In this document: positions 9,775 through 59,680 of the stretch, one piece after another
Layout: every line of letters starts with the position of its first letter
Position numbering within the stretch: position 1 is the first letter of the stretch
Source of the DNA: Styela clava
Lineage: Eukaryota > Chordata > Ascidiacea > Stolidobranchia > Styelidae
NCBI RefSeq assembly: GCF_964204865.1
Contig: NC_135252.1
Coordinates: 21,535,383-21,599,382, forward strand
Length of the DNA stretch: 64,000 nt
Reading direction: 5' to 3'
Position numbers and translations under genes: made by a program
The notes under the pieces: generated by a model
Databases searched by the model: none
What the model was told of the DNA's origin: nothing
Seen by the model: only the letters and a program-made list of their open reading frames with translations

Positions 9775-12700
9775 ATGCATTACTTTGTGACGTCAGTCGC
9801 ATTGTTGGTGGTTTCGATCGCGTCTGCCAACAGTTTAACATGCAATGAAGGCTTTAACGGCAAAATAGGAGGAGTTCCGTTTTATCACTGGACAGATAGA
9901 AAGTGTTCCGGTAAAAGTGATTGCTTCATGCAAGAGCTGTCCTTGAAATTGTTCGAGACAGATATCGAAGGTAAGATATTCACAGCGATGCCAGATATTT
10001 ACAGAAAGCTGTAATTTAAACCGAGTAGTGAATATCAAAGTTGCCCAATTCGTGGGAAGAAATCAAGCAAAATATTTTGCATTCTGTGTGCAAAACACAT
10101 TAAAAAGTTTGGAGTGTCATCTTTGGTGAAAGAATGTATACATATATGAATAAAATGTCATAATAATTAAGTGCAGGGTATACATAGGCCAAACTCACTA
10201 CAATGTACATTGCTCTAATTAGTTGCTATTTATTCGTTATTTCTATCTATTGGCTATTGTTTCATATAAAACTTCATACAACTAGCCGAGTTATATAGAA
10301 CTATCAATTACTTTAATTTTATAACTAAACATGTAATCAAAAGTTATAGAATTTAGGAAATAATCCATTTCAATTTTGGCAAACTAATTTATTTTACGTC
10401 GACTCATTTCGTACTCGACTATATAATCAAGTAAAAACTGCGACTTGCATCTGACTTAAATCATACCTGTGTGTGTACTAGATTAGGGTTAGGCAATAAT
10501 TTTATTCCGATTTTCCTTATTTTAGTTCTATACGAGTTCGGGGACGGTCTGTGTTAGCCGATTGAATATACCCCCTACTACATATTGGTACACACACTTC
10601 TGAGTTCAGTAACACATCCCGGGCAACTCTAACGTATCCTTCTTTGCATTTAGTGACAGCGAAATACGGTGGCTGCATTTCATCTCGCTACGCCCCTCTG
10701 ATGACCTGTGAAAACCTATTTGGTGCGGACAGCACATTCGATCCTGCAAGGTTGCTAAATATGATGCCAGAATTAGAGCAGAAATTCAAAGACTTCTTAG
10801 AAGACATGAGACTAAACACGACCCACCAGTTTCAAATCTTATTCTCAAATGGCAATGGAAGTGAGGAGTTCATAGAAGGCTTGGTTACTTTTACTGAACA
10901 TTTAGGGTTTAAAATGGAAAAAGTGAAACCACTAATTAAGCCAATGGCAGAATGTTGGAATTGGCTATTCGCTTCGCCTTCGCCTTCGCTGGATTATCAA
11001 GATTTCATATCACGACGTATAAATCTCACGGACAATTTGTTAGAAGCTCTTGGAAATCTTGAGAGTAAAAATACGGATATTGCAGAATATATTTTATCAT
11101 TTATCGGTAATTGGGCTGACGAAAAATCTATCAACGAAATACGAGATTCAAAGTATTTACCTTTGCTTGAAAACCTTCCCGAGTTGGTCAAAATGGCACT
11201 ACCAAATTCTTTTAAAGCTTCCAGCTGGTTTGATTCCATGTTTGAACTTCTCGGTGACATCAGGATTTCTGAACCAAAAACGTCTGCTTTTAACACGATC
11301 AAAACTATGAAATCTATGGTTGAAATACCCAAAGAATACAACAAATACCTGGACCCAATACTGAACACCGCTCCTGAACTTGTTCAACACATGGCCGACG
11401 GAGACTACATGTACGCGGGAACATGGTCTGCAGAACTTGTCAAGTCGGAAAGCAAAACAAATTCGGTCACAAAGAAACTTTCAACTTCAATATTCAAGTT
11501 CATCTCAAGCATAAGTCAAGAGCAAGTACCTGCTGATATAAATGTCCTGATCACTTGGCTACCGGGAGTCTTCTACAATTTCTTCCCAGAGGATAGTACC
11601 GGTATTGACCGAGTTTACAACGCACTTTCTGACGGATTCGATGCTACTGATGTTACAAATCCAACGAATACTCTCCCAACCACCAAGATGAGCGATTTTT
11701 TAGTTAAATTCACCGAAAAATTCATTGAGTACCCACCAGGACAACAGGAGCAGTCTGAAGCAGCCAGACAGATAAAGGACTTGCTCGTCATCAATTTCTC
11801 GAAGACATTTTATAACATTATGACGTCAAAATACACGGATAAACTCAATATCATCTTTGATACGTTGGCAGAAGGTTTGAAAAATTATCCCGACTTTGAC
11901 ACGGGAAAAATCGTAGAAAATTTGATCACAAATTTAGGATGGACTGTTCCAACCGAACTCAAGCCCCTTCTAAACACCGCCCAAGGTCTAGTCAAGGCAA
12001 TGATGAACGGCAGTTATGAAGCAATGAGGGAGGCAGCTGAAAATGTCATTCAAGAATACGAAGAAGCATATCCTAAATCAGAATTTCCGGATTTAGTACG
12101 AAGATATATCGATTACTATCATACTGTATTTGTAGAAGCTGAGAAGATAAGACAGGAATCTAGGGATTCATATGATGAGTGCCCTTACACAGACCCAGAC
12201 TGGCTCGAATGTTTCAACAAAATAGACGATGAAAATAGAAAAAAGGATAAAGAATTTGCGCTGAAACTTTATAAAATGTCGAATGATTTGTCAGTTGACA
12301 CTTCTTTTGCTATCTTTCGTTTAATGGATTACGACGATGACGTCATCACATCGGTTGCGATAAAGACTTTCCCTCAATACGCAACTTACATCAGACTGAT
12401 GCGAGTTCTTGATTCTAGCGACATCAAGGACCTGCTTAACGACTTTACTACGTGGTTTGTAGAATCGACCTATGGCCATAACTATACCTTGCTAACGTTA
12501 ACGGAGTTCACTGCAGCGATAAATGCAACTGTTTTCAAAATTACTTCGAAGCTGGGTGACGTCACGAAAGAATTACGTAACATGTTCGCACCTGAGTAAG
12601 TATAGTATTTAGTTTAAGTTGAAATATTTTTGTTGAACGAGAATCGAGTGAAATATTCAATAGAATAATCTGGATAATTTGTTAAAAATAAGCAAACATT

Positions 12701-13855
12701 ATCCAGTAGGCCTACTTCCGTTATCCCGTAGTGTGTGCACCAGGTTAGGGTGAGGGCATAATTTCATTCAGATTTTTCTTATTTTAGATCTATTACGAAT
12801 ACGGGGACTGTCTGTATTAGCCAAGTGAATATACTCATATGTTTTTGTCCAATTAAACAGCTTGATGTAAAGTAGGCGAACAAAATTAGTTACCTCCATA
12901 TTGGTACACACACTTCTGGAGCGCCAAATATACTTGATATATAGCCATATATAGACGTTTGGAACTTGTAACGTGTAACCAGTGACGGGATTCAGGAAGC
13001 ACGCACGGATTTCCGCGAACCTTTTTTGGAAATCTGGGAAGCGATTAGCGAACCCGTTCCTGTGTTTATTCTCGTGTTAGTTCGGCATGGTTTTTTAAAA
13101 TGAATACGAATAGTATTCACCGCTCCTTTACATAAAATTATTCTCCACGTGCAATTTGCTTATTACTCGTGAAACGAAACATTGCGTGGGGCTGTGCTGG
13201 TTTTCTTTTCCCTCCAGCAGGGGCATTAAATATTCGCGCGATGTACAAATTATTACGAGGTTTTTCTCTTTCTACAGAAGTTTTTTTGGTACTCCCCTAG
13301 TTAGTGAACCAAGATGGCGGACACCGAAATGTAGAGTGTGTACCATGTTAGGGTTAGGCCATAATTTCAGGTACAAATACTACGGGAGTCACTTGGCTAG
13401 TCCCCGAACTCGTAATAGAACTAAAATTAGAATAGAATTATAGCCTAACCCCCATCCTGGTACACATACTATATTCTGGTGTCCGCCATCTTGGTTCACA
13501 TACTACGTGAGCGCCATTTTTTTTACAAATTGATTATTTGCGCGTGTAATGAAATTACCAACGTTGCTCATATGTTTTGAATTTCAATTACAGCTCGTGC
13601 AAATACGAACATTGCTCATTCGACGGTTGTAATGCAGATGGATTTCTTGCAAAAATACCGACATTCTCACCACCTCCAAGTGTTGCGACTCCATCAGTGT
13701 TCCCCGACAAGAAATTAGATAATACTGGCAAAGACAAAGTGCTGACCATTACAGATGAACCGCCATCTACCACGTCTGGATCTAATATAGTCAGCGGGAA
13801 CATAATGCTGAGTATGATCTCATTGTGGCTGAGTTACAGAGCGTTTATGGAATAA
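9775..13855 (+). CDS. Family gene A1: secreted Ly6/uPAR-like protein with a ~630-aa insert and GPI-type tail
   Basis: Three exons, 9775-9970, 10654-12595 and 13594-13855, join in frame to 799 residues. Introns are GT-AG, phase 1 (donor gtaaga, acceptor tttag) and phase 2 (gtaagt, ttacag). The start is chosen because it gives a signal peptide (residues 1-18, core VALLVVSIASA) and cacaATG is kept in all copies. Core cysteines are C23, C44, C50, C73, C84, C715, C720 and C725, the last followed by N726. This order, ending C-x4-C-N, resembles a Ly6/uPAR three-finger domain; C720 is not adjacent to C715 as is usual. Between C84 and C715 lie about 630 mostly helical residues with C166, C575, C585, several N-glycosylation sites (for example NTT, NLT, NAT) and imperfect repeats. 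Residues ~727-775 are Pro/Ser/Thr-rich. The end is hydrophobic (IMLSMISLWLSY), so a GPI signal or a short membrane anchor. The fold is inference; the exon model is strong. Confidence 0.88.
10468..10602 (+). mobile_element. R-family MITE, copy 2 (intron 1 of A1, internally deleted)
   Basis: It retains gattagggttaggcaataat, gagttcggggacgg, and the right end tattggtacacacacttctg, but lacks the segment with aacttgatgtaaa. The same insertion sits in A2 intron 1 (18682-18871) with the same ggcaataat variant, so it predates the A1/A2 duplication. Confidence 0.7.
12724..12925 (+). mobile_element. R-family MITE, copy 3 (intron 2 of A1)
   Basis: The left part is cccgtagtgtgtgcaccagg and the right end is cacacttctggagcgcc. 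It is absent from A2 intron 2, so it inserted in A1 after the duplication or was lost from A2. Confidence 0.75.
13288..13515 (+). mobile_element. R-family MITE, fold-back form (intron 2 of A1)
   Basis: It starts ggtactccccta and ends acgtgagcgcc. Both arms hold aagatggcggacacc or its complement, so the element is close to a long palindrome. The 8-bp flanks gttttttt and attttttt differ by one base. It is absent from A2. Confidence 0.75.
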
Positions 13856-13912
13856 TGACTTGGAGACGTTTTGTAGCATATTTTGTTTCATTACCCAGCA
13901 GTTTTTGTATGA

Positions 13913-13918
13913 AATAAA
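13913..13918 (+). terminator. Polyadenylation signal of A1
   Basis: AATAAA lies 58 bp after the A1 stop codon. At the aligned position in A2 (22027-22032) the sequence is AATGAG. Confidence 0.75.
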
Positions 13919-14581
13919 CATTTTCCGTTCTTGAACCAACAGTTCTTTTCTAAACAAAACCATTTATGTATTTTGTAAAACAGGATCTAATGTTGGACAA
14001 ATTTTGCTATTGCCGATGAATTTGATTTGCTTTAACGTATACTATGACATTTATATATAGGTTTTTCATAATTCTACAATGTCGATACTAAGGCAGAGAA
14101 CGAAGCGAAAAAGGTGATATGCGCGATATTCCAAAATATCGATATCCGAAAACAAATTATTATTTGCTTTCCTACTTTCGAATCAAAATAATCTATTGGC
14201 CATAGTTTAATCAAAATGAAATTTGCCATTTTGTTCAATTTTTATTCTATCATGGTATCATGTATTTTGCATAAGTTTGTTAAACGTATTGTTAAACACG
14301 TGTTTGTCAATGAATGATCACCACTTTTAGAATAATTTTTAACTTTCGTTTCAAAAAATAAAGGTTTCAAAAATGGAGTTTATAATTGATATTAGGCCGT
14401 TACATTCGGAATAAGCAATGAATACTTACTTTAATATATTTTCAGTACCTAACAAAGTATCGTTATTTCTTTCAGTTTGTTTATTTGTATGTTCACCTTA
14501 TTTACCCATAAATTTCTATTATGAAAAAAATCAAATAATAAATTACATAAAACGAAAGCTGCTTTTTTTTGAAAAAAAAAA
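13919..14581. other. Downstream flank of A1
   Basis: AT-rich DNA that aligns with 22033-23143 downstream of A2, with landmarks ttgttaaac acgtgt, ggccgttacattcg and cataaaacgaaagttgc split by small indels. I see no gene in it. Confidence 0.5.
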
Positions 14582-14799
14582 GGTACTCCCGTAGTGTGTG
14601 TACCAGGTTAGTTAGGGTTGGGCCATAATTGTATTCCACTTTCTCTTTTTTTAGTTCTGTTACGAGTTCTGTGACTGTCTATGTTAGCCAAGTGAATATA
14701 CCCCCTGCCCGTAGGTTTCAGTCCCTTTACACAACTTGATGTAAAGTAGGCGAACAAAATTAGTTACCTCCATATTGGTACGCACACTTTTAGAGTACC
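14582..14799 (+). mobile_element. R-family MITE, copy 5 (shared by units A and B)
   Basis: It starts ggtactcccgtagtgtgtg and ends ttttagagtacc, followed by agaaaatctta. The orthologous insertion in unit B is 23144-23354, so it predates the duplication. Confidence 0.8.
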
Positions 14800-17065
14800 A
14801 GAAAATCTTAACTAAGCTGGCCTGGTTAAAATGCGGATAGTTACGGACTAGTGACGTACGCAGGAAAAAATATTTGCCTAAAAATCATTTTACAATTTTG
14901 AGGAAGCCTATAATTAATTAAGAAAACGCGTCCAGAGTGGGTTTAAAGTTTCGGACCAAATTGAAAATGCCTCCGTTATTATGAATTGATTAATTGGTTA
15001 AATATTCCGCAACCCGATTTAGACTTTATGTTAACTCACAATATAAAAGATGCGAATTTCGTACTTTTGGCGTTCGAAAAATCGAATGTCTTTTTATTCC
15101 CATCAGTTTATAATTTTAAAATGTATCATTAATCAAAATGGCCGTTTTTTTTATTACATATTTTGCCTAATTTATACATTTAATAAAGCTAAGTTGTGTA
15201 CTTTTCACCCAGGCACATACACGCAGCAAATATATGAATGAGGCCACAGCTAAGCGTTCGTAAATATGTAAATGTTTCTTCAATACCAAATAGCCTTGAG
15301 GCATGTTTGGAAAGTTAGGTCGGTATCAACAATTTCCCTCAATTTTCTCAAATGAAAGAAATAGATTTTTCACTCAAAAACATGTTCGTCAGGCGTTGAT
15401 TTATGCAGATTGAGGCGTGTTGTTGTAAGAATTCAGTCTATATAAGATCTTTCTGTGAGATTGCCCGCCGGAATAATATAGATAGAATATCGAAATGGGC
15501 AGTCTGTATTAGTCTTAGATAAGTTTTCTGTCGACTTGGAAGATTTGATTAAATCAATTTGTGAGCTAACCTGTAGAATTGGGAGCGATAGTGGAATTGC
15601 AAATTAGAAATTTTAAATGTACAGCTTTCAAGTTTTAGTTCGGGTTTCATGAGGCTAACTACCTTGTTTTGCGTTGTGCCTTTTCACGGGAGGAACCCTA
15701 TGCGTATAATACAAGGGTGCTGAAGTAAGAATTAAAAAGAACACCGTTTTGGTAATAGTTTTAATATGCTTGTCTGAAGTCTGACGTTACAGAAATACAT
15801 TTGTGTTAGTGTTTAGCAACACTCTTGAATTACATTTTCAATGTACCAATACTGTGATTTATTCCGCGAGTGTTCTGCTTCAGAGAAAAATATTGCTGCT
15901 TTTCCGACAGTGATTTCTATTTGTTATTGAGAATTTAGCAGCAAAAACTAACAGTACCTCCAAAATAAAATGCTTCTTACTTTGAGGTCAAATTTAATTT
16001 GAGACGTGAAGTTTTTCAGTTGATTTCAAACTTATTGTCATCGATTAGAATGAATGTGAAGACTGTGCATAAATAGGGGAGAAGTTAAGAACGAGTCAAA
16101 CTCGGTAACACTATAATAAACGGCTAAGAAAGCGGATAATTACTAATTTGGTATTTTAAAAACTTAGCGTTATTTTTTTCAAATCTCACATTTTTGAATC
16201 AGTGGCAAGGGCTTTGTACATTAGAAAATCGCTTTCTAGCGACGTTTAAATCTTAAAACACTGAAACTTTGAATTCGATTGGTCCACCAGTTGTGAAAAA
16301 AGGCAATTATTTTCCCTAAACCAAGATTAACAACTCTTAGGATCACCCCATGTTCGCCAATTAGTCAATTTCTTATATGCTCCGCAAGTTTTGTGTGTTT
16401 AAAGAATGAACTTTGGGTTAGTGCAGAACAGTATACCAGGAATACGATATCACACCTTGATGCAGTACTTTATGAGAATCCAAAAACTCACGTTGGGCCG
16501 CGCCATTGTGCAATCTAATTTTATTCAATTTTCATTTGAGCTACATCAAATTTAATTATTAACCTTATACCATGGTTCAAATTTCATCTTTTTTAGATTA
16601 GCAAATATCAGATAAAGAGTAATCTTACGCCACAATGCACTCCATGGTGACGTCACTCGCATTGTTGGTGGTTTCGTTCGCGTCTGCCAAGAGTTTAACA
16701 TGCAATGAAGGCCTTAACGGCAAAGTAGGAGGAGTTCCGTTTTATCACTGGGCAGAAAGAAAGTGTTCCGGTAAAAGTGATTGCTTCATGCAAGAGCTGT
16801 CCTTGAGACTGTTCGAGACAGATATTGGAGGTAACTTATTTTCAGCGATGCCAGATATTTACAAAAAGGTGTATTTTAAACCGCGTAATGATTATCAAAA
16901 TTGCCGAATTAATGGGGAGAAATCGAGCGGAATATTTTGCATTGTGTGTGCAAATCACACTAACAAATTTTTGGTAAATTATATTTCCCAACAAGCCAAG
17001 TATAAAACTACCAACTATTCTAACTTCAAAACTAAACACATTATCAAGAGTTATAGAGTTTAGAC

Positions 17066-17885
17066 CAGGGTGGTCCAGAGTTGTTCGGTTCGCGGGCCAC
17101 AAAATTATTTTTGCATTGTTCGCGGGCCGCAATAGTGCCAAAATTAGGTAAACATTGTAATACAGAACGAACACTTTTATTGTGCACACACATTGATCAA
17201 TCAACAAAGAAAGTGCTCACGCGGATAAAGGTTCTTTCGAACATCGATAAGATTCTCAAAGAAAAACCCCGTACCTTTGAAAAATGCTCATTGCTCACGC
17301 GATTTTAGATTATATTCTTTTGTCACCGACACAACTTACCGACATATATAATATCATTGTAGTATTTTTCCAACCATATACAGTTAAAATCTGTTTGGAT
17401 GAGTCAGCTTTTTCAAAATAACTGCAGATTGATTGATTACCAAATGTGAGGTACAGGAGAGTAATTACTAAATTTTCTGACAAAAAAGCCATATTCTTTG
17501 TAATACAGTACTGTTTAGGCTGACTGAAAAAAAACGGCAGGATTTATAATTTTTAACCTAAGCCAACCTGGACTAATAGACTTTGCATTTGATTTTTAGT
17601 TTTCCATGATGCTTTATTGTTAGCATATATTCTCGACCAAAAAGATAGAAAGTCATTTAACAATTTAGAGTTTAGATAGACTATCAAGCATATCATTCAA
17701 CTTCGCTAGTCATAACACTAGTCAATTCAGTAACATTAGTGATGTAACAGTATTTCAGAAGATTTTTCTGGTTATTTTTAGGACAAAACGACACCAAATG
17801 CGTCTTTATTACCCTTCAGTACGTGCCACAGATAATGAGGCTGCGGGCCACATGTAGCCCGCGGGCCTGGGTTTGGACCACCCTG
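17066..17885 (+). mobile_element. Non-autonomous hAT-type element (820 bp) in A2 intron 1
   Basis: The ends cagggtggtcca and tggaccaccctg are perfect inverted repeats. The exact 8-bp duplication gtttagac flanks it at 17058-17065 and 17886-17893. The empty site is visible in A1 intron 1. It contains cgcgggccac and gcccgcgggcc near the ends and no transposase frame. The 26386-26670 element is a shorter relative. Confidence 0.93.
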
Positions 17886-17963
17886 GTTTAGACAATCTAT
17901 TTCAATTTTAGCAAACTGATTTATTTTAAGTCTACTCATTTCGTACTCGTCTATCCTCTATAT

Positions 17964-18603
17964 CAATGTCGTCCAATCCGTGTCCCGCGGGCCACATGTG
18001 GCCCACCGAGAAGTTTCGGGTGGCCCGCGCTGTATTTTCGGAATTGAATAAAAAAATTGAGTAAAACTTCTATTTTTTGAGTCATGTAGTTAACATGAAG
18101 ATTCAATAAAAACAATTTGTTCATTTTCCTGAAATACGCTCTGCTAGCCATTTCAAACGAGCCATGAGTGCCATCACCAACTGGAAGATTTCGATACATA
18201 AATACTACACACTTGGGCAGAATGGCAGTTTTAATGATCTCATAACTTGGCAGCACGTACTTGTACAAGTAAGTTTTTTCAAACATGAACCATGTCAAAT
18301 CCCCTTTGGGATCACTAATTTCTGACAGTCATATGGAAAATTCGCTTCGCACTTGTTAGCGAAAAACAGTGTCAAACTTCACATTAAAATATCTACGTGT
18401 AGAAAAAACTTTGTTGACTTTACTGTATCTTCTTTTTTTATTGTTCTTATTATTGAGAAAGTTTGGTGCGGGGGTTTTGTTTGTTTTTTCATTAACTTTT
18501 AGTCAATGTACCAAAACTAGAACATAATTACCATGTTAAGTGGCCCGTGCAATTATTAGTAAACTAAATGAGGCCCGTCGGCCAAAAAGGTTGGCCGACC
18601 CTG
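17964..18603 (+). mobile_element. Non-autonomous hAT-type element (640 bp) in A2 intron 1
   Basis: The left end caatgtcgtccaa and right end ttggccgaccctg are imperfect inverted repeats. The exact 8-bp duplication ctctatat flanks it at 17956-17963 and 18604-18611. The uninterrupted site (ctatataatcaag) is present in A1 intron 1. Confidence 0.9.
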
Positions 18604-18681
18604 CTCTATATAATCAAGTGAAAACTGCGACTTGCATCTGACTCATGTCATAACTATAGTAGTTTCAACCCTGCTTTTTTG

Positions 18682-18871
18682 GGTACTCGCGTAGTATATG
18701 TACCAGGTTAGGGTTAGGCAATAATTTTATTCCGATTTTACTTATTCTAGTTTTAATACGAGTTTGGGGACGGTCTGTTTTAGCCAAGTGAATATACCCC
18801 CTGCCCATAGGTTTCAGTAGGCGAACCAAATTAGTTACCTCCATATTGGTACACACACTTATGAAGCGGCG
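18682..18871 (+). mobile_element. R-family MITE, copy 6 (intron 1 of A2)
   Basis: Orthologous to the A1 intron 1 copy (10468-10602), but it keeps more of the left end (ggtactcgcgtag) and the segment cataggtttcagtaggcg. Confidence 0.75.
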
Positions 18872-21000
18872 TTTTTTTTTTGTAGATTTTTGAGTTTAGT
18901 AACCCATTCCGGGCAATTCTAATGTATCTTTCTTTGCATTTAGTGACAACGAAATATGGTGGCTGCATTTCATCACGCTACGCCCCTCTATTGACCTGTG
19001 AAAACCTATTTGGCGCGGACAGCAAATTCGATCCGGCAAGGTTGCTAAATATGATGCCAGAATTAGACCAGAAATACAAAGACTTTATAGGAGATTTGAG
19101 ACTGAACACAACCCAACAGTTTAAAATGCTGTTTTCGAATGTTAATGGAAACGAGGAGTTTATAGAAGGCTTGATTACATTCGTTGAACATCTAGGATTG
19201 AAAATGGAAAAGGTGAAACCACTAATTAAGCCAATGGCAGAATGTTGGAATTGGCTATTCACTTTGCTTATGCCGCCTTGGATGGATTATCAAGATTACC
19301 TTTCAAGAACTTTAAATCTCACGGACAATTTGTTAAAAGCTCTAGGAAATCTTGACACTATGAATACGGATATCGCGGAATATATTTTATCATTTATAGG
19401 TAATTGGGCTGACGAGAAAACTATCAACGAAATACGAGATTCAAAGTATTTACCTTTGCTTGAAAACCTTCCCGAGTTAGGCAAAGGGGCGCTACCAGAT
19501 TCTTTTAAAGCTTCGAGCTTGTTTGATTCCATGTTTGAATTTCTGGGTGACATCAGGATTTCTGAACCAAAAAAGTCTGCATTTAACGCTATCAAAACTA
19601 TGAAGTCTGTGGTTGAAATACCCAAAGAATACAACAAATACCTGGACCCAATACTGGAAACCGCTCCTGAACTTGTTCAACACATGGCCGACGGAGACTA
19701 TATGTACGCGGGAACGTGGTCTGCAGAATTGGTCAAGTCGGAAAGCAAAACAAATTTGGTCACAAAGCGACTTTCAACTTCAATATTCAAGCATAAGTCA
19801 AGAGAAAGTACCTGCTGATATAAATGTCCTGATCACTTGGCTACCGGGAGTCTTATATAATTTCTTCCCAGAGGACAGTGACGGTATTGATAGAGTTTAC
19901 AACGCAATTTCTGATGGATTCGATGCTACAGATGTTACAAATCCAACAAAGACTCTCCCAAACACCAAGATGAGCGATTTTTTAGTTGAATTCACCGAAA
20001 AAATCATTGAGTACCCACCAGGACAACAGGAGGAATATGAAGCAGCCAGACAGATAAAGGACTTGCTCGTCATCAATTTCTCGAACAAATTTTACAATAT
20101 TATGACGTCAAAATACACGAATAAACTCGATATCATCTTCGATACATTGGCAGAAGGTTTGAAAAATTATCCCTACTTTGACACTGGAAAAATCATAAAG
20201 AATTTAATCACGAATATAGGATGGACTGTTCCGACCGAACTCAAGCCACTTCTAAACACCGCCCAAGGTTTATTTAGGGCAATGATGTACCGCAGTTATG
20301 AAGTAATGAGGGAGGAAGCTGAAAATGTCATTCAAGAATAAGCAGAAGCATATCCTAAATCAGAATTTCCGGATTTAGTACAAAGATACATCGATTACTA
20401 TCATACTGTATTTGTAGAAGCTGAGGAGATAAGACAAGAATCTAGGGATTCATATGATGTGTGCGCTCACACGGACCAATACATTTTGAAATGTTTCGAC
20501 GACTATAATAGGAAAAAAGATTTTGCGCTGAAAATGTATAAAATGTGGAATGATTTGTCAGTGGACACATCTTTTGCCATCTTTCGTTTAATGGATTACG
20601 ACGATGACGTCATCATATTGACTGGTTAAAGATATTCCCTCAATACGCCACTTACATCAGAGTAGACTGATGCGAGTTCTTGATTCTAACGACATCAAGG
20701 ACCTGCTTAACGACTATACTAAGTGGTTTGTAGAATCGACCTATAGCTATGGCCGTATTCGTAACTATACCTTGCTAACGTTAACGGAATTCACAGCAGC
20801 GATTAATGCAACTGTTTTCAAAATTACTTCGAAGCTGGGTGACGTCACGAAAGAATTACGTAACATGTTTGCGCCTGAGTAAGTATAGTATATTTTTATG
20901 CTAAATTAGTTTTGTTGAACGGGAATCGAGTGAAATATTCAATAGATTAATATGGATGATTTGATTGAGAATTAACAAAAATTATCCTTGATATATACCT

Positions 21001-21180: not shown

Positions 21181-22032
21181 GTAACGTCGTAACACTGTAA
21201 ATATTGTTTAAAAAACATAACATAACGCGCACGGGTTTACACGGAACCGTTCTTGCAATCTAGGAAGCAATCATCGAACCCGTTCCTGTTTTTCTCATGT
21301 TCGGCATGATTTTTTCTGAATACGAATAATATTCACTGCATCCTCACATTAATTTATTCTCCCCGCGATTCTGAAATTCTTCTCACTCATTAGGTTCCTC
21401 AGCTTTTTATTTTTGGGGGTGTTTTGAAATTTGAACCACTTTCTGAACATTTAAATACATTTTCATTTACGTTAACATTTGAAGTATGATGTCAAACCTA
21501 AAATTAGTGGTAGTGTTTGAAATTTTAGAGGAGGTGTTTACACCCTATAGGGCGGAATTGTAGGATAATCACTGTTCTCACTCCAGCAATGCCCCTTGAT
21601 ATTATAAATTATCACGAGGATTTTCTCTTCCTACAGAACTTTAATTTATTATTTGCGCGTGTAATGAAATAACCAACGTTGCTAATATGTATTAAATTTC
21701 AATTACAGCTCATGCAAATACGAACATTGCTCTTTCGACGGTTGTAACGCAGATGGATTTCTCGCAAAAATACCGACATTCTCACCACCTCCAAGTGTTG
21801 CGACTCCAGCAGTGTTCCCCGACAAGAAATTAGATAATACTGGCAAAGACAAAGTGCTGACCATTACAGATGAACCTCCATCTACCACGTCTGGATCTAA
21901 TATAGTCAGCGGGAACATAATGCTGAGTATGATCTCATTGTGGCTGAGTTACAGAGCGTTTATGGAATAATGACTTGGAGACGTTTTGGAGCAAATTTTG
22001 TTTCATTACCCAGGACTTTTTTATGAAATGAG

Positions 22033-30089: not shown

Positions 30090-30136
30090 TTGTAGATAAT
30101 TGCACCAGACTCACATTCTGCATATTTGTATAATTA

Positions 30137-48995: not shown

Positions 48996-49208
48996 ATACA
49001 GGACGTCCATGAAGTCGTGTTGAAAATTCAAATTTGTTATGAAGTCAGTTTTCAATATATCTTGACCAGATTTATTTTATTTTAATATCTGTTTATTTGA
49101 GTTTTTTTCACTTCATCAAATACACCTTTACATGCTCGCTATCAGTAGCATGAAGCACATCGAAGTTCTTTCTCCTAATTTAATACAGGACTCATGCACA
49201 CCCTGTAT
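48996..49208 (-). mobile_element. Mariner-like MITE, reverse copy
   Basis: It begins tacaggacgtccatgaagtc and ends cacaccctgta. Interior atgaagtcagttttcaatat is the complement of the right-side block in the copies at 7259 and 28547. Confidence 0.6.
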
Positions 49209-49794
49209 ATCCATCCATTATCTGCTAACGAAAATCTATTTCAGCTGACTATTTCGCATGAACTTAATGACCTCAATGATGATGACTTTTCATTAGCTAA
49301 ATTTAAGGAAGCCGGAAAGAAATTTTGCAATAATTCGTGCAAAACGTTGCAACCGAGAATATTATCTCACTTTGCACTTTGCAGAGTCATTTCAGACAAA
49401 ATATTCCATCGAATTAAATCAATTTCAACATAATTAAGTGAATATTTTATCCCAAGAATCGAAAACATAATCTCACTTCCTGGAAATTAAAGAAAAAGTA
49501 TTAAAATGACCATGAAATTATGAGTCATTGGAATTTTTTTCGATTGATGAAATTCAAAACGATGAAATGATTAATAGACCTAAGTTACGCAATTTTCGTT
49601 GTCATTATCATTAGAAATCGTTATATAAAACAAGTATTTAAATAAATCGGAAAACCTAATGTGCGCAATGGCCTATTAAGGCGTTAACTGCGTTGGCATC
49701 GCAGATTACACATTGCGTAAATGAACTTCGTATCAGCGACCGCTTGTGCCGAACCTTGATTGAAAATAAGCATTAATAAATTAATGAGTTATTT
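49209..49794. other. Non-coding spacer
   Basis: An open frame of 79 codons (49194-49433) overlaps the MITE end and has no domain. I call no gene. Confidence 0.35.
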
Positions 49795-50065
49795 GATGGT
49801 TTTCGATTGGTTTCGACGGTATTTTGCACGTTTTATCGGTATTTTTGATGATCTTTACACGTTCTTGCGAGTCTTTTTTTTATGTTTTTTCACGTTTTAG
49901 CAAGTTTTTTGCACGTTTTAGCGAGTTTTTTTTTTGTGTTTTCAACGATTTTTGTACGACTTAGCAAGTTTTATGATGACTTTTGCACGTTTATTGGTTT
50001 TTTCAATAATTTTTGACGGTTTTGAATATTTCATCGAGTTTTGTTGATGGTTTTTGACGGCCATA
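49795..50065 (+). repeat. T-rich degenerate minisatellite
   Basis: Short units of about 20-40 bp built from ttttgcacgttttagcgagt and gatgatttttgacggttt. The same vocabulary (tttttgatgatttttgcgc, catcaagttttcttgatag) appears in intron 1 of B1 (51990-52110) and B2 (56420-56540). Confidence 0.65.
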
Positions 50066-50289
50066 CTTCTGACGGAACTCGAAACTATAAGCCGATGAGT
50101 AAAATAAATTTTTGTAACAGCGTTGTATCCGATGCGTCATCTCAGTCACGTTTCTCGGTGTCATTCGCCGATATATTTTGTAATATAATATTGATTATGA
50201 GCTCAAGTAAATTTCGGCCTTGGAGGTGAATGATTGTAATTAAGCTTGCTTAGCACTTAGACTTAAGTTGTTAACTTGTTACCAGAAAA

Positions 50290-50740
50290 GGAAATTTGGA
50301 TTCAAACGCCATTTTATGACAAAAGTAAATAAATTCTGTGGAATTCACGCCTATTTGTGGCCAACTGTGAAGCGTCCAAAAGAAATTCACGCCATTTTGT
50401 GTCTAAAGCTTTTATTAATTTTAAACATAGCGCATTGCGAAATACATGTATCTTTAAAAAAAAATTGAGCGAAACAACAGAAATAAAAAATTTGGTTCCA
50501 AATACCATTTTGTGTCCAACTGTAAAACGTTTCTGTTTTTACAAAAATTCATGCCCTTCTATTAATCAAATTTTTCGGTAATTTTAATGTAGCGGATTGC
50601 GAAATACATGTTACAATCACTGAAAAAGCCCTTTTTAACAGAGATAGAAAATTTGGGTTCAAATGCCATTTTGCGTCCAAGTGTAGAGCGTTTCAGTGCG
50701 TTTTTACCAAAATTTATGCCCTTTTATCATTCAAATTTTC
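50290..50740 (+). repeat. Tandem repeat, ~2.5 units of ~160-195 bp
   Basis: aaatttgg-ttcaaa is followed by cattttgtgtccaa or a variant at about 50292, 50488 and 50648. gcattgcgaaatacatgt and ggattgcgaaatacatgt lie 163 bp apart. Frames here are repeat-driven. Confidence 0.65.
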
Positions 50741-51457
50741 ACAATAATAAAAAAAAATGTTTATTAAAATAAATCTAAAGTTTTTCTGAGTTTTGTGATT
50801 CGAATATTTTTATTTTGAGATAATTTTCTAATTTTTTATACTTTTGCGTATTTTGCGTTAAAACGATATTTTACGTATCAGCTTGAAGTGTTCCGTTATA
50901 TTTATTCGAATGACATGCAAATTCTGGTAAATTTTATGATTATTTTTTACGCAATACTGTTGATTGACAATCACATGCAAATTGCAATACCGTTTCCTTC
51001 GTCCTTTGGGCGCTCTTGTATGTCACGTGACAATTCGAGTTATAAATAATCGATATTTGACCAGCTTATTCAGTCCAGGCAATCCGTGACTAGAAGATAG
51101 CCGTGGTGTCTGTTTAAATAAGCCGGGACTACTAATGGTGTGACAGTCTTTGCTTGCAATTGTAATCTCGACAGATAAGTAATAATGCAAGCTAAGTTGA
51201 TAAAAATAAAAATGCGGGTTTTGCGTTTCATAGATACATCGCGTATATTATTAATAAAAATGCGAGTTTCTTGGAATACGTTACAAAGTGTGCGTAAATT
51301 AGACTGATAACTGCAGAATATTTCGCGCCTTGTCCGATGTTTTAAGTGTTATTACCTTTTCTTAAATTAAATGAGAACTAACCATATTTATTCATATCCT
51401 TTACAGCTTAATATATATATTCATTATTCATCTGCAAAAGAACATTTTAAAGTCACA

Positions 51458-54400
51458 ATGAATGTGTTTGTGACGTCATTTGTATTGCTGATCGTTTCGG
51501 CAGCGTCCACCAATTCGTTAAAATGCAAAGAAGGTTTCACAGCGAACGCTTTTGGCGTTCCCTTCTATCACTGGAAAGATAGAGAATGCAGTGCCGGGAG
51601 CGATTGTTTCGTCCAAGAATTGAAAACGAGTATGTTCAAAAATGATATGAAAGGTATGGAATTTGTTTTTTTTCTGTCTTCCATGAATTTTTGCATATAA
51701 AGTTTACACCTTTATTTTGTTGTGTCGACCATTTTTTCGTTGTTGAAAGCTTTAGTTGCGTTGTTTGAGAATCAAAAACTTGTCTTACACACACACAAAA
51801 TTAGCTTCAAAAAAGCTTTTCGAATGCGCTCTGCATTAATATCTAAATATGTTTGGCACTATGTTGTATTGATACAAACGACCCATAACTGATGTTAAGT
51901 TTTTCAATATGAAATAACCTCCATAATAAAAAAGTTTTCATTAGGCAAAGTATCTGTAAAAACAATATCCATATATTGATTAAAATTTATTTGACTTTTT
52001 TTTTCACGTTTTTTTTTGATGATTTTTGCGCTTTTCATCAAGTTTTCTTGATAGTTTTTGCCGGATTTTTCAGGTTTGAGCAGGATTTTTGATGATTTTC
52101 CACGTCATATAAAATAATAGACTCAATAGAAAATAATTCCCACTGTTATTTTGCAAAGTATATATAAAATATCACATTATTCATCAAAATCGAACATTGC
52201 AAACCCAAGTCCACTAACATTTTTAAATTAGAAACTTTTTTTGTCCTATTCACTAATTCCTAAAATCGTTATATTTCTTATTCCAGTTGACTTCAAGTTT
52301 GGAGGGTGCATTTCTAGTGCATACTCAGAGATGGTCACGTGTCAAAACCTATTTGGAACCGACAGCAAACTCGACCCTGAAACAATATTCAACATGGTGC
52401 CAGATCTGGACAAAAAATTGCAAGATTTTTCAAACGATCTAATGTTTAACGCCACTGATTCATTGCGCATGATGTTCTCAAATGGCAACGGTAGTCGAGA
52501 ATTCATTCAAGGCTTGGTCACATTCCTGCAACATTTCGAATTTAAGACAGATAAACTAGAACAGCTTGTAGACCCAATTTCCAAATGCTGGGATTCCTTA
52601 ATCGGTGACAGTGAATTTACAACATGGCAAGAATTCATGGAAATGAGAGAAAATGCCACGAATGGACTTCTCTTAGCATTGAGCAAAGTTGACACTGAAA
52701 ACGCTAAAATTTCAGAAGACCTTTATTCTTTCTTCGGTAACTGGGGAAGCGTCGATATGGTTGCAATGATAAAGAACAGTTCCTACTTTCCACTTGTCGA
52801 AAATCTTCCCGGATTGGTAAAATATACTTTACCAGATTTTTTAAAAGCTGACGTATGGTATGACGTCATTTTTGATTTTGTTGGTGACGTCAATGATGAA
52901 AATCCGAAGAAATCTGCACAAGAAATGATCAAAACCTTAAAATCATTGATCCATATTCCCCAGGCATACAAAAAATATTTGGACCCGATCATCGATTCAA
53001 TTCCGGATCTTGTCCAACAAATGTGGGAGCAAGGGAATGCACAATATATCGGAACGTGGATGGCAGAGCTAATGAAATCCCAAAGTAAAACAACCACAAC
53101 GACAATGAAACTTTCGAATTCAGTATCAAATTTCGTCTCTAGTATAATGCCAGGGGAGTTGCCCGCGGATTTCCAAACTGCAATCACCTATGCGCCGGGA
53201 TTGTTTTACAGTTTCTTCCCCGATAACATAAACGATATTGATCGCGTTTACACAGAATTAACAAGTGGATTCGATTCCATTGATATCACAAACCCGACAA
53301 AAACTCTCCCTACCACCAAAATGAGCGATTTTCTTGTCAAATTCACTGATAAAATCATAAGTTATCCATCAGGCCCAGAGCACGATGCCGGTAAACAACT
53401 GAAAGATCTTTTCGTCATCAATTTCTCGAAGACATTTTACAACATTATGACGTCAAAATACACAAAGAAACTCGATGTCATCTTCGATACATTAGCAGAA
53501 GATTTGAAAAACTATCCCGACTTTGACATCGAAAAAATTGTAACTAATGTAATCAAAAACTTAGGATGGTATGTTCCTATCGAACTGAAACCTTTACTAA
53601 ACACCGCCCAGGGTATTTACACTGCAGCACTGAATGGCACTTACGACGCAATAACAAAAGCTATCGATGATACCATACAAGCTTACAAAATCACTTTCCC
53701 AAAATCCGAAATACCATCTCTTATCGGCAGTTGGGTGGACTTCTACCATTTTGTATTTACCGGTCAACGAAGCTTAATGGAAGACCTGAATACCGCATAT
53801 AATGGTTGTGATGCGGATTTAGAATGGGCCGAATGGAACGACTGTTATAACCGCAAACTTTATATATTCTTACAACGCCAGGTAATTTACTTCAAGAAAA
53901 TTGCAACTAAGCAAACCTCTGTTATGATCGATACTTTTGTTGCCGCGTTCCACTTGCTGAACGGAAAAAGTGAAATCATTACCAACGCACTGTTGTCAGC
54001 TTTCCCTGAGTACTCAACTTTGATTCATTTATCACAAACTTGGAACATGGAGGACATAAAAGGACTGGCTACAGAGGTGATGAAATGGGCATACAATTCA
54101 ACCTTAAGTTATCCACAAAAAATCAATATCACAGATCTGGTGGCAAACGTGAATGTAACAATTTTAAAGTTGACTGAAAAATACGTTAAAGACACGCAGG
54201 AGATCCGTTACTTACTGGCTCCCGAGTAAGTATTCTTACATGATTTGATGTTTTCTAGGTATTTTGACAATTTTCACTCTTCTGCTTCTTCTAAGACTGT
54301 GGTTCGGACTCCTGCATCTCTGAAAGTCTTTCGGGTGTTTTGATAAATAAAACAACCACTGCAGAATCTAGACCAGGGGCGTGCAACCCTTTTATACAGG

Positions 54401-54920
54401 GGGCTTCTTACCTATGAATGGCAAGGTAGCTCTTAGTAAAGGGCGTATAAAACGTTCCTTATAAAGATAAAAAAAAATAACTGACTCAAAGTCTTTCTCA
54501 TATCTGAGAACTCGTATCTCCGAGTTCAAAAACCCAACAACTAACTGTTAATTCCTTTTCAGCTCCTGCAAGTACGCTTACTGTCCTAAAGATCTATGCA
54601 ACACAGATGACTTGCTTACAACAGCGAAACAATTTATTAAAACGGTAACAACGTCATCAACTGTGTCGCCTTCGAGTATGCCGTCATCAGCAGTGACGTC
54701 ACCAACATCTCATTCAACCACAATGAGAAACTCTGGCAAAGATAAAGACCGTGTTTTACCGGATGAACCATCCCAAACCACAAAACCCAACTCCAAAGGA
54801 AAATCCCAGGCTACGACCACAGAAACCACCACCCTTGGTTCGGGGTCAGGAACCATTGGTGCCACAATGTTGCTCAATATTGCCACCCTGTGGTTTGCAT
54901 GCAAAGTTATATTTTTGTGA
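51458..54920 (+). CDS. Family gene B1: secreted Ly6/uPAR-like protein with a large helical insert and GPI-type tail
   Basis: Exons 51458-51653, 52287-54225 and 54563-54920 join to 830 residues, with introns of phase 1 (donor gtatgg) and phase 2 (gtaagt). An in-frame ATG lies 29 codons upstream, but 51458 is chosen because it gives the conserved cacaATG and signal peptide (residues 1-20, core SFVLLIVSAAS). Core cysteines C23, C44, C50, C73 and C84 match A1 exactly in position; the C-terminal set is C714, C719 and C724 with N725 (SCKYAYCPKDLCN). The insert has the same repeat motifs as A1, such as YLDPIIDSIPDLVQQM and KPLLNTAQG. After N725 comes a ~85-residue Ser/Thr/Pro/Lys stalk likely to be O-glycosylated, then a small-residue stretch LGSGSG and a hydrophobic end, a good GPI signal. 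Many N-glycosylation sites (NAT, NSS, NGT, NIT). Function unknown. Confidence 0.9.
54370..54480 (+). mobile_element. hAT-type relic in B1 intron 2
   Basis: agaccaggggcgtgcaac resembles a hAT left end. The matching relic in B2 intron 2 begins near 58797, so it predates the B1/B2 duplication. Confidence 0.45.
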
Positions 54921-55214
54921 AAACTTGGTGATTTCAAACGAAATTTTGAACATTTTTCTGCGCCATTTTTGTCTTTTTCTATTATGCAAAAGTTCTCAAA
55001 ATATGTAATCGCCTCATTTTGGCCTGCGATGAAATATGCCAAAACTGTTTTGAGTTTTTACAATAGAATTTGAATCTAGCTTTACACAAAAACCTACTTT
55101 AGCTGTTTTATTTTAATTTATTACTGATTTAAATACATAATTGATTTGTTTTACTTAAGATTTGTTGAAGTGAGAATTGAGATGAAGCGGGCAAGATATT
55201 AGTGTACTTTTTTG

Positions 55215-55450
55215 GGTATTCCCGTAGTATATGAACCAAGATCGCGGGAACATGAGCGTAGTCTGTGTACCAGGCTAGGATTAGGCCATAATTTCAGTTA
55301 GTAATACGCCGGGAGTCACTTGAATAGTCCCCGAACTGGTGATAGAACTAAAATAAGGGAAATTGGAATAATATTATGGCCTAACCCTAACCTGGTACAC
55401 ATACTATATTCAGGTGTCCGGCATCTTGGTTCACATACAACGTGAGCGCC
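55215..55450 (+). mobile_element. R-family MITE, fold-back form, between B1 and B2
   Basis: It starts ggtattcccgtagtatatg and ends catacaacgtgagcgcc. The exact 8-bp duplication cttttttg lies at 55207-55214 and 55451-55458. It sits at the junction of duplication units C and D. Confidence 0.92.
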
Positions 55451-55458
55451 CTTTTTTG

Positions 55459-58400
55459 CATCGGTTCTGTTGTGACATTTTGGCGGTCTCGCATGTCACG
55501 TGACATTTCGAATTATAAATATTCGATATCTGACCAGCTTATTCAGTCCAGGTTATCCGTGACTATAAGATAGCCGTGGTGTCTGTATGAATAATCCGGG
55601 ACTTCTAATGGCGTGAGAATCTTTGCTCGCAAATGTTATTTCGACAGATTAATAATATTTCGGGCTGAGTTGATTAAAATTAAGAATACGCGTTTCGTAG
55701 ATACATCACGTATATTGTTACTATAAATGGATCAACAGTTACGTTTGGTAAATTTTTTTAGGATCTATTTTTCAAACTTTTTATAAACTAAATTATATGA
55801 AAACTAACCATAGTTATTTATATACTTTACAGTTTAATATATATCTTTAACTGCTAACACTGCTAAAAGGCATTGTAAAGTCACAATGAATGTGTTTGTG
55901 ACGTCATTTGTGTTGCTGATCGTTTTGGCAGCCTCCACCAATTCTTTAAAATGCAAAGAAGGTTTTACAGCGAACGCTTTTGGCATTCCATTCTATCACT
56001 GGAACGATAGAGAATGCAGTGCCGGGAGCGATTGTTTCGTCCAAGAATTGAAAACGACTATGTTCAAGAATGATATGAAAGGTATGAAATTTGGTTTTTT
56101 CTGTATTTCATGAATTTTTGCATATAAAGTTTACACCTTCATTTTGTTGTGTTGTCGACCATTTTTTGTTGTTGAAAGCTTTAGTTGCGTTGTTTGAGAA
56201 TCAAAGACTTGTCTTACACACACACAAAATTAGCATCAAAAAAGCTTTTCGAAGGCGCTCTGCATTAATATCTAAATATGTTTGGCACTATTTTGTATTG
56301 ATACAAACGACCCATAACTGATGTTAAGTTTTTCATTATGAAATAACCTCCATAATAAAAAAGTTTCCATTGAGCAAAGTATCTGTAAAAAACAATATCC
56401 ATATATTGATTAAAATTTATTTGACTTTTTTTCACGTTTTTTTTGATAATTTTTGCGCTTTTCATCAAGTTTTCTTGATAGTTTTTGCCGGATTTTTCAG
56501 GTTTGAGCAGGATTTTTGATGATTTTCCACGTCATATGAGATAATAGACTCAATAGAAAATAATTCCCCATTGTTATTTTGCAAAGTATATATAAAATAT
56601 CACATTATTCATCAAAATCGAACATTGCAAACCCAAGTCCACTAACATTTTTAAATTAGAAACTTTTTTTGTCCTAATCACAAATTCCTAAAATCGTTAT
56701 ATTTCTTATTCCAGTTGACTTCAAATTTGGAGGGTGCATTTCTAGTGCATACTCAGAGATGGTCACGTGTCAAAACCTATTTGGAACCGACAGCAAACTC
56801 GACCCTGAAACAATATTCAACATGGTGCCAGATCTGGACAAAAAATTGCAAGATTTTTCAAACGATCTAATGTTTAACGCCACTGATTCATTGCGCATGA
56901 TGTTCTCAAATGGCAACGGTAGTCGAGAATTCATTCAAGGCTTGGTCGCATTCCTGCAACATTTCGAATTTAAGACAGATAAACTAGAACAGCTTGTAGA
57001 CCCAATTTCCAAATGCTGGGATTCCTTAATCGGTGACAGTAAATTTACAACATGGCAAGAATATATTGAAATGAGAGAAAATGCCACGAATGGACTTTTC
57101 TCAGCATTGAGCAAAGTTGACACTAAAAACGATAAAATTTCAGAAGACATTTATTCTTTCTTCGGTAATTGGGAAAGTGTCGATATGGTTGCAATGATAA
57201 AGAACAGTTCCTACTTTCCACTTGTCGAAAATCTTCCCGGATTGGTAAAATATACTTTACCAGATTATTTAAAAGCTGACGTATGGTATGACGTCGTTTT
57301 TGATCTTCTTGGTGACGTCAGTGTTGAAAATCCGAAGAAATCTGCACAAGAAATGATCAAAACCTTAAAATCATTAATCCATATTCCCCAGGCATACAAA
57401 AAATATTTGGACCCGATTATCGATTCAATTCCGGATCTTGTCCAACAAATGGCGGAAGGGAATTCTGAATATATCGGAACATGGATGGCAGAGCTAATGA
57501 AATCCCAAAGTAAAACAACCATAGCGACAATGAAACTTTCGAACTCAGTATCAAATTTCGTCTCTAGTATAATGCCAGGGGAGTTGCCCGCGGATTTCCA
57601 AACTGCAATCACCTATGCGCCGGGATTGTTTTACAGTTTCTTCCCCAATAACATAAACGATATTGATCGCGTTTACACAGAATTAACAAGTGGATTCGAT
57701 TCCATTGATATCACAAACCCGACAAAAACTCTCCCTACCACCAAAATGAGCGATTTTCTTGTCAAATTCACTGATAAAATCATAAGTTATCCACCAGGCC
57801 CAGAGCACGATGCCGGTAAACAACTGAAAGATCTTTTCGTCATCAATTTTTCGAAGACATTTTACAACATTATGACGTCAAAATACACGAAGAAACTCGA
57901 TGTCATCTTCGATACATTAGCAGAAGATTTGAAAAACTATCCCGACTTTGACATCGAAAAAATTGTAACTAATGTAATCAAAAACTTAGGATGGGATGTT
58001 CCTATCGAACTGAAACCTTTACTAAACACCGCCCAGGGCATCTACACTGCAGCACTGAATGGCACTTACGACGCGATAACAAAAGCTATTGATAATACCA
58101 TACAAGCTTACAAAATCACTTTCCCAAAATCTGAAATACCATCTCTTATCGGCAGTTGGGTGAACTTCTATTATTTCGCAATTACCGGACAAAGAAGCTT
58201 AATGAAAGACCTTGATACTACATATAGTGGTTGTGATAACGATTTGGGATATGCCGAATGGAACGACTGTTATAACCGCAAACTTTATGTATACTTACAA
58301 CACAAGTTAACCTACTTCATGAAAATTGCAACTAAGCAAACGTCAGTTATGATCGATACTTTCGTAGCCGCGTTCCACTTGCTGAACGGAAAAAGTGAAA

Positions 58401-59680
58401 TCATTACCAACGCATTGTTGTCAGCTTTCCCTGAGTTCTCAACTTCGATTCATTTGTCACAAACTTGGAACATGGAGGACGTAAAAGAACTCGCTTCAGT
58501 GTTTTTGAAATGGACATACAACTCAACCTTAAATTATCCCCAAAGAAGCAATATCACAGATCTGGTGGCAATGATGAATGTAACAATTATGAGGTTGACT
58601 GAAAAATACGTTAAAGACACGCAGGAGATCCGTTACTTACTGGCTCCCGAGTAAGTATTCTTACATGATTCAATGTTTTCTAGAAATTTTTGACAATTTC
58701 CAGTCTTCTGCTTCCTTCTAAGACGGTGGTTGGGACTCCTGCATCTCTGAAAGTCTTTTGGATGTTTTGATAAATAAAACGACAACTGCAGAATCTAGAC
58801 CAGGGGCGTGCAACCTTTTATACAGGGGGGCTTCTTATCTATGAATGGCAAGGTAGCTCCCTATTAATGTACTGAGACTTGCTCTTAGTAAAGGGCGTAT
58901 AAAACGTTCCTTATAAAGATAAAAATAACTGACTTAAAGTCTTTCTCATATCTGAGGACTCGTATCTCCGAGTTCAGATACCCAACAACTAACTGTTAAT
59001 TCCTTTTCAGCTCCTGCAAGTACGCTTACTGTCCTAAAGATCTATGCAACACAGATGACTTGCTTGCAACAGCGAAAGAATTTATTAAAACGGTAACAAC
59101 GTCATCAACTGTGACGCCTTCAAGTATGCCGTTATCAGCAGTGACGTCACCAACACTTCATTCAACCACAATGAAAAACACTGGTAAAGATAAAGACCGT
59201 GTTTTACCGGATGAACCATCCAAAACCACAAAACCCAACTCCAAAGGAAAATCTCAGGCTACGACCACTGAAACCACCACCCTTGGTTCGGGGTCAGGAA
59301 CCATTGGTGCCACAATGCTGCTCAATATTGCCACCCTGTGGTTTGCATGCAAAGTTATATTTTTGTGAAAACTTGGTGATTTCAAACGAAATTTTGAACA
59401 TTTTTCTGCGCCATTTTTGTCTTTTTCTATTATGCAAAAGTTCTCAAAATATGTAATCGCCTCATTTTGGCCTGCGATGAAATATGCCAAAACTGTTTTG
59501 AGTTTTTACAATAGAATTTGAATCTAGCTTTACACAAAAACCTACTTTAGCTGTTTTATTTTAATTTATTACTGATTTAAATACATATTTGATTTGTTTT
59601 ACCTAAAATTTAATGAGAAATGGAACAAAGAGGGCGGGATATTTGAGCAATGTACTTTCTTATCGCGACCCAATTGGCGC
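55459..59680 (+). repeat. Tandem duplication, unit D (contains gene B2)
   Basis: Second copy of unit C. A 269-bp block spanning the end of the coding region and the 3' flank (54871-55139 versus 59319-59587) is identical by eye, while promoter-side DNA and the C-terminal coding third differ at many sites. Confidence 0.85.
55886..59368 (+). CDS. Family gene B2: recent tandem copy of B1
   Basis: Exons 55886-56081, 56715-58650 and 59011-59368 join to 829 residues, with the same splice phases as B1 (donors gtatga and gtaagt). The signal peptide, eight-cysteine core, stalk and GPI-type tail match B1. One codon is lost where B1 reads QMWEQGNAQY and B2 reads QMAEGNSEY. Over the first ~550 residues the two are almost the same; between about residues 550 and 690 differences cluster, many changing amino acids (for example YHFVFTGQ versus YYFAITGQ, and EVMKWAYN versus VFLKWTYN). 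No AATAAA is visible in the shared 3' flank. Role unknown; the protein is predicted to sit on the outer cell surface. Confidence 0.9.

Follow-up and report, generated by a model that had tools for sequence, protein, structure and literature searches.

The 64,000-nucleotide stretch of DNA analysed here (referred to below as the window) covers C3:21535383-21599382 of the 376.6 Mb genome of the solitary ascidian Styela clava and carries members of a gene family whose products appear to contain a single three-finger domain of the Ly6/uPAR (LU) kind, divided by a long insert of helical repeats. The spliced model of one copy, A1, is the NCBI ‘uncharacterized protein LOC120342692 isoform X1’ (P0001; 100% identity, 799 amino acids), and the model of another, B2, reads as NCBI LOC144420998 (P0002). 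A third gene, LOC120343116 (P0003), lies on the minus strand and mostly outside the window, with its last exon inside. The exons of these genes and of the copies A2 and B1 are as follows, in window coordinates; the glycosylphosphatidylinositol (GPI)-type tail is that predicted at the C-terminus.

9775..9970, plus strand: A1 exon 1, encoding the signal peptide with C23, C44 and C50 and closing with a phase-1 donor (model as in NCBI P0001)
10654..12595, plus strand: A1 exon 2, encoding C73 and C84 of the base and then, from 10710, the insert (spliced model)
11325..11651, plus strand: best helical-repeat copy of A1, residues 290-398 (106 bits with a profile trained on the family)
13594..13855, plus strand: A1 exon 3, encoding C715-x4-C720-x4-C725-N (13598-13633), a Thr/Pro/Ser-rich stalk, a hydrophobic GPI-type tail and the stop
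16635..16830, plus strand: A2 exon 1, pseudogene copy
18944..20878, plus strand: A2 exon 2, disrupted by a frame shift and stops
21709..21969, plus strand: A2 exon 3, with C-x4-C-x4-CN and tail
51458..51653, plus strand: B1 exon 1
52287..54225, plus strand: B1 exon 2, insert included
54563..54920, plus strand: B1 exon 3, with C-x4-C-x4-CN, stalk, tail and stop
55886..56081, plus strand: B2 exon 1 (gene reads as LOC144420998, P0002)
56715..58650, plus strand: B2 exon 2, insert included
59011..59368, plus strand: B2 exon 3, with C-x4-C-x4-CN, stalk, tail and stop
62534..62750, minus strand: last exon of LOC120343116 (P0003), whose remaining exons lie outside the window

The original prediction for this locus, made from the letters alone, had described in A1, B1 and B2 a fixed order of cysteines interrupted by about 630 residues. 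This is exact in the spliced models, which read C23-x20-C44-x5-C50-x22-C73-x10-C84, then 628-630 residues, then C-x4-C-x4-C-N, with the C-terminal triplets at 715/720/725 (A1), 714/719/724 (B1) and 713/718/723 (B2). The exon encoding C-x4-C-x4-CN was found five times in the window: four copies belong to A1, A2, B1 and B2, and the fifth, at 62746 on the opposite strand (minus), to LOC120343116. The inserts of A1, B1 and B2 each hold three extra cysteines, at 166, 572-575 and 584-585.

The family in the Styela genome

A search of the genome with the exon-2 frame of A1 gave at least 25 matches and one with P0003 at least 32. The matches that were read make up eleven loci with all three pieces, namely the N-terminal cysteines, the insert and the C-terminal cysteines. 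These are A1, A2, B1, B2 and LOC120343116, two copies on contig C13 (C13a and C13b) and four further copies on C3 at 22.83-22.84, 17.26, 17.25 and 8.17 Mb. The eight cysteines and the final asparagine are kept in all eleven, and the cysteine frame is therefore not due to chance; the search for the C-x4-C-N motif itself required the asparagine, yet all loci recruited by similarity carried it too. In an alignment of six proteins that includes a further relative, P0004, the eight frame cysteines are the only invariant cysteines.

C13a and C13b are two intact, intronless copies of 720 codons about 20 kb apart (L029 2077-4239 and L030 1603-3765). Their form suggests a retrocopy with a later duplication and, with an overall ratio of non-synonymous to synonymous substitution rates (dN/dS) of 0.37, they appear constrained. 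Both have five cysteines at the N-terminal end and three at the C-terminal end, with no others in the protein.

In the members whose insert was measured, it has 582 residues in C13a and C13b, 620-630 in the window genes A1, B1 and B2, P0003 and P0004, about 705 at 17.25 Mb and about 2,447 at 17.26 Mb. This last, giant paralogue (C3:17258651-17267736, minus strand; L031/L032) has a coding exon of about 7.4 kb with 17 helical repeats, amounting to 2,460 residues in the single exon when counted from the YG-x-C motif, and keeps the eight-cysteine frame. A hydrophobic tail is present at eight of the eleven loci (A1, A2, B1, B2, LOC120343116 and the copies at 22.8, 17.26 and 17.25 Mb), and the members of the family would be secreted and mostly GPI-anchored. 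In the divergent 8.17 Mb copy (L035) the third exon stops shortly past C-x4-C-x4-CN, and this copy is possibly secreted or decaying.

The two ends of the protein as one probable LU domain

The disulfides of LU domains join cysteines 1-5, 2-3, 4-6, 7-8 and 9-10, cysteines 2 and 3 being often lost, and strand E, with which loop 3 begins, lies at an edge and may be flexible (passages of PMC6600238). On this numbering the cysteines of A1 are C23=1, C44=4, C50=5, C73=6, C84=7, C715=8, C720=9 and C725=10, with 2 and 3 absent, so that the insert falls in loop 3, after 7 and before 8; the predicted bonds would be C23-C50, C44-C73, C84-C715 and C720-C725. The order of cysteines suited to the pairs 1-5, 4-6, 7-8 and 9-10 is seen at all eleven loci read. 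The C1-x20-C4 spacing of A1 is that of domain II of human C4.4A, in which, from the bond positions given in a passage of PMC7053344, cysteines 7 and 8 are separated by 15 residues.

The introns fall at constant places. At all nine spliced loci a phase-1 donor closes exon 1 and an acceptor is found exactly 11 nt upstream of the YGxC/FGxC motif, an intron thus separating cysteines 5 and 6 (C50 and C73 in A1). A further acceptor, at which exon 3 can begin, precedes LU cysteine 8, the sixth of the eight, by exactly 4 nt; C13a and C13b are intronless. The exons chosen for the base, as the two cysteine-bearing ends are called here, agree letter for letter with the NCBI proteins for A1, B2 and LOC120343116, which confirms phase 1 for these three; the other six are consistent with it. 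LU exons generally have phase-1 introns on either side, and the intron that splits the domain is placed at the loop-2 tip (passages of PMC6600238); the predicted intron between C50 and C73 of the family is at this published place. Additional exon-2 acceptors are possible at four loci (A1, 22.8, 17.25 and 8.17 Mb).

Profile searches with the insert removed and with the insert alone had been proposed in the original prediction. When the two ends were joined without the insert (86-92 residues), two of eight joined bases weakly matched the three-finger model Pfam Activin_recp, C13a at E 0.0077 and LOC120343116 at E 0.035, both below the curated cut-off. A longer join matched Activin_recp in one of five constructs (C13a, E 0.036, also below cut-off). 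No match to Activin_recp or to three-finger models was found in any of eight shuffles of the joined C13a base, nor with either C13a half alone. Pfam CD59 is weakly matched by P0002 (E 0.048) and P0003 (E 0.5) at their C-terminal ends.

It had been proposed that the last three cysteines belong to the same domain as the first five, with the insert in the third finger. Judged from the sequence, this is very likely, because of the parity of the cysteines, the LU-like loop-2 intron, the weak Activin_recp match that needs both ends and the constancy of the frame while the insert ranges from 582 to about 2,447 residues; the fold and the bonds themselves stand as predictions. The parity argument runs as follows: the counts are odd at both ends (five and three), and C13a and C13b contain no further cysteines, so that, if all are paired, one bond joins the ends. 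It rests on the C13 copies because the inserts of P0001-P0004 hold cysteines of their own.

Several observations weigh against the reading as a joined LU domain with a GPI-type anchor. The cysteines in the inserts (three each in P0001, P0002 and P0003, five in P0004) mean that pairing is not simple, and an alignment of four proteins without the C13 copies has a further invariant cysteine in the insert, C585 of A1. The script used for exons 1 and 2 listed phase-1 candidates only, and the phase at six of the nine spliced loci rests on it. No curated profile matches the base above its cut-off and six of the eight joined bases have no three-finger match. Unrelated Pfam families approach the Activin_recp values (UL24 at 0.16, GDA1_CD39 at 0.19, DDDD at 0.18-0.32), the unrelated matches among the joined bases lying at E 0.16-0.47, and one C13a shuffle gave LRRNT at E 0.051. 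A search of the PDB with the joined base returned one chance match (E 1.4). When the joined bases were compared, profile against profile, with the LU domains of eight Styela genes, the result was weak: nine columns were aligned with a score of 15.0, which 6 of 200 column shuffles also reached; in global mode there was no sensible alignment. In place of the LU signature CCxxxxCN all eleven loci have C-x4-C-x4-CN, the C4-C5 spacing is x5 or x7, unlike the textbook pattern, and with the insert in place the domain exceeds the LU length of 60-90 residues. No in-frame hydrophobic tail was seen in C13a, C13b or the 8.17 Mb copy.

The separation of the sixth and seventh cysteines (LU cysteines 8 and 9) had been the ground for caution in the original prediction, and it can be set beside the ordinary LU genes of Styela. 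Pfam UPAR_LY6 gave 15 matches in the genome, five of them above cut-off. Among the LU genes are tandem ten-cysteine genes on contig C16 at 14.56-14.65 Mb (L040-L047, L050), eight of which were read. In these, cysteines 5 and 6 are separated by an intron whose donor fits phase 1 in seven of the eight (phase-1 acceptors only being taken), and all eight end in C-x3-C-x4-C-N; as tandem duplicates they are not independent. The caution is partly eased by these genes, but two further Styela LU matches below cut-off, L051 and L052, have the adjacent CC and also count against the family. Separated C8/C9 is compatible with LU membership in Styela, yet it is not the rule there. A search of the genome with the CD59 family gave one match (E 0.65) and one with Activin_recp gave two, one above cut-off, which reads as the exon of an ordinary three-finger protein whose CC is adjacent, and one below. 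The eight C16 genes also have a further LU-type second-half exon downstream (CNRTC- or CNRTCTTDGCN-like), which suggests that they encode two-domain proteins, and the exons of L045-L047 are nearly identical.

The insert as a tandem repeat array

The insert had been pictured as a helical head displayed on a three-finger base. Its helical character is supported by the hydrophobic periodicity of four inserts, which stands at z 5.1 to 15.7 relative to shuffles at 95-105 degrees (5.4 to 15.7 at 100 degrees), with none at 160-180 degrees. A single head was rejected in favour of repeats on account of the self-similarity of the giant paralogue, at offsets of 137 and 274, and the matches to a repeat profile. 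This profile, built from three giant units, found 46 stretches, 17 in the giant, five in the 17.25 Mb copy and four in each of six shorter proteins with inserts of about 600 residues, and was trained on the same proteins that it scored. The forward stretches scored 14.6-106.2 bits, the reversed proteins gave nine stretches of at most 9.1 bits and 40 shuffled proteins gave none. With a profile from giant units only, one clear copy was found in each of seven other proteins (32.7-81.8 bits; in A1 70.7 bits at residues 297-398), the remaining copies outside 17.25 Mb being weak (at most 14.8 bits, against at most 5.4 in reversed proteins). The window genes would therefore have one good unit and about three partial or degenerate ones. 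The insert is thus described as a tandem array of a predicted amphipathic-helical repeat of about 105-135 residues.

No consistent match to this repeat was found among curated helical repeat profiles (HEAT/ARM or other) or solved structures. Thirteen Pfam families matched single repeats, each in one of 21 repeats only (best Big_3_3, E 0.00011). With the full proteins, the insert exons and the giant, the Pfam matches were likewise scattered and inconsistent (DUF713 at 0.00078 in the giant, FANCI_S3 at 0.0019 in P0004). The A1 protein matched no solved structure by sequence; a PDB search with the full alignment gave seven matches (best E 0.023). With the repeat profile, 22 chains were matched, the best at E 0.0061, individual stretches reaching 9.8 at best.

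N-glycosylation sequons number 67 in the giant exon, where its composition predicts 34 and 500 shuffles gave at most 52. Many residues of the insert are invariant across distant members. By a custom counting method applied to two paralogue pairs with small numbers of changes, dN/dS in the N-terminal base and the insert was 0.13 versus 0.46 for B1/B2 and 0.14 versus 0.38 for C13a/b; the C-terminal base was unchanged between B1 and B2 and had a ratio of 0.1 in C13a/b. Values of dN were highest in the last third of the insert, and in one B1/B2 segment the ratio was near 1.

Elsewhere in the window a tRNA-Arg gene (anticodon tct) was found by ARAGORN on the minus strand at 1409-1482 (Rfam RF00005 at 1410-1482, 69.1 bits). 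A dispersed repeat of at least about 86 bases, with CCAGGTTAGGGTTAGGCCATAATTTTATTCCGATTTTCC-like sequence, is present in nine direct copies starting at 8718, 10459, 12721, 14588, 18684, 23146, 26062, 31635 and 34702; introns of A1 hold two of them and an intron of A2 one. Similar sequence was seen by eye near 13281, 25311 and 55208, and the repeat is probably a mobile element.

Interpretation and comparison with known systems

We put at roughly three in four the probability that these genes form a LU-type family in which one eight-cysteine LU domain is opened in finger 3 by an array of helical repeats, likely to act in binding or adhesion at the cell surface. Such a domain, without LU cysteines 2 and 3, would be opened between 7 and 8 by tandem repeats, about four in the window genes (three partial or degenerate) and 17 in the giant. 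Both ends of the insert lie inside one predicted disulfide, so that the array would return to its start, and the 7-8 bond would close it at the foot to give a loop of repeats and not a free rod; to this extent the head of the original prediction would become a closed loop. The looped array would rise from a LU clasp near the membrane, on a Thr/Ser/Pro-rich stalk. Most probably it would form the business end of the protein, a glycosylated and faster-evolving surface that binds a ligand or a neighbouring cell and is lengthened by duplication of repeats while the clasp remains constant. The dN/dS pattern is read in this sense: anchor and clasp would stay fixed while the arm changes, most likely to serve binding at the cell surface. 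A bolder version, in which the LU clasp hosts an expandable loop of a new extracellular helical repeat and the proteins are tunicate receptors whose binding arm grows by duplication, is offered tentatively.

The alternative that survives best, although we consider it somewhat unlikely, accepts the three-finger base but takes the insert to be a spacer or a structural coat array with no role in binding, its fast change being due to weak constraint. The low-complexity stalks, the differing repeat number among paralogues, the density of sequons in the giant exon at about twice the shuffled expectation and an insert dN/dS below 1 overall could all be fitted to a spacer. The invariant insert residues kept across distant members are harder to fit, and the repeat copy that the profile of giant units detects in all seven other members, at 32.7-81.8 bits, goes beyond what a pure spacer would need.

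It is improbable that the ends with five and three cysteines are instead two separate small domains of a large helical protein, their likeness to LU proteins being a convergence of spacing. Such a view would account for the lack of any curated LU profile above cut-off and for the weak profile comparison with Styela LU domains, and the insert cysteines of A1, B1, B2, P0003 and P0004 would be possible partners for the ends. It would, however, leave unpaired cysteines at both ends of C13a and C13b, where the conserved cysteines are odd in number at each end and there are no others; the LU loop-2 intron place is not expected from convergence; and the joined C13a base matches Activin_recp where neither half does. 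Finally, that the gene models are wrong, with LU-gene exons fused to an unrelated helical gene, might be suspected from the distance of 1 kb between exons 2 and 3 of A1 but was rejected as scarcely credible, being contradicted by the identical NCBI model of A1, by the recurrence of the same arrangement at the remaining loci, by the two unspliced 720-codon frames of C13 that each hold both ends and the insert, and by P0004, which has all of these in one protein of 762 residues on a contig of 2,489 bases.

The preferred reading, a LU domain opened in finger 3, sets the family apart from what is known of such domains. LU domains are regarded as compact units of 60-90 residues that occur alone or in rows of themselves. 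A few are found in a foreign context, in GPIHBP1, SP-10 and the TGF-beta receptors, and no insertion into a LU finger is described in the passages of PMC6600238 from which these examples come. In the literature found, including passages of PMC7053344, PMC6337849, PMC4839075 and PMC6600238, no LU domain with such an insert is described, and a search by gene name, made for LOC120342692, found it in no paper. Searches of 5.8 billion proteins list as relatives three proteins of Styela along with P0004, whose identity to A1 is 32-34%; they depend on shared exact words, two of them took in at most 7,994 candidates and one scored 11, and a wider distribution is compatible with them. Phage records yielded no relatives.

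Should the preferred reading be correct, finger 3 can open without loss of the LU domain, even by about 2,450 residues. The failure of profile searches to pick up such proteins would then be accounted for, split LU domains would become a target for renewed genome searches, and an undescribed helical repeat would be added.

Like the alpha-solenoids of the HEAT/ARM kind, the insert is made of repeated amphipathic helices, and there are weak matches to Xpo1 (E 0.12), to FANCI_S3 (E 0.0019, in P0004) and to a designed armadillo (E 0.023). The HEAT/ARM repeat unit is about 40 residues. The family differs in its unit of about 105-135 residues, in being predicted to be extracellular and sequon-rich and in matching none of these models above cut-off or consistently. 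The ectodomain of Activin/TGF-beta receptors (PF01064) is the best Pfam match of a joined base (E 0.0077, below cut-off), seen only with the insert removed; unlike these receptors the family has no transmembrane kinase. The C16 LU genes of Styela share with it the intron between cysteines 5 and 6 and the non-adjacent C8/C9 (C-x3-C-x4-CN) and differ, in the eight read, in having ten cysteines and no insert.

The closest likeness is to single-domain GPI-anchored LU proteins such as CD59, LYNX1 and Bouncer. Common to both are the signal peptide, the L-x-C start, the cysteine order 1,4,5,6,7,8,9,10, the C-x4-C-N end, the intron between cysteines 5 and 6, a GPI-type tail in the last exon (in most members of the family) and the clustering of the genes. 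Unlike these proteins the family is without cysteines 2 and 3, a loss also known from elapid toxins (passages of PMC6600238), its C8 and C9 are four residues apart and 582 to about 2,447 residues lie between C7 and C8. It has an extra phase-2 intron directly before C8, and its signal peptide and the first half of the domain share one exon. On these sequence characters the family would be a variant of the LU kind, agreeing with it in cysteine order, final asparagine and intron place and departing from it in length and in the lack of an adjacent CC.

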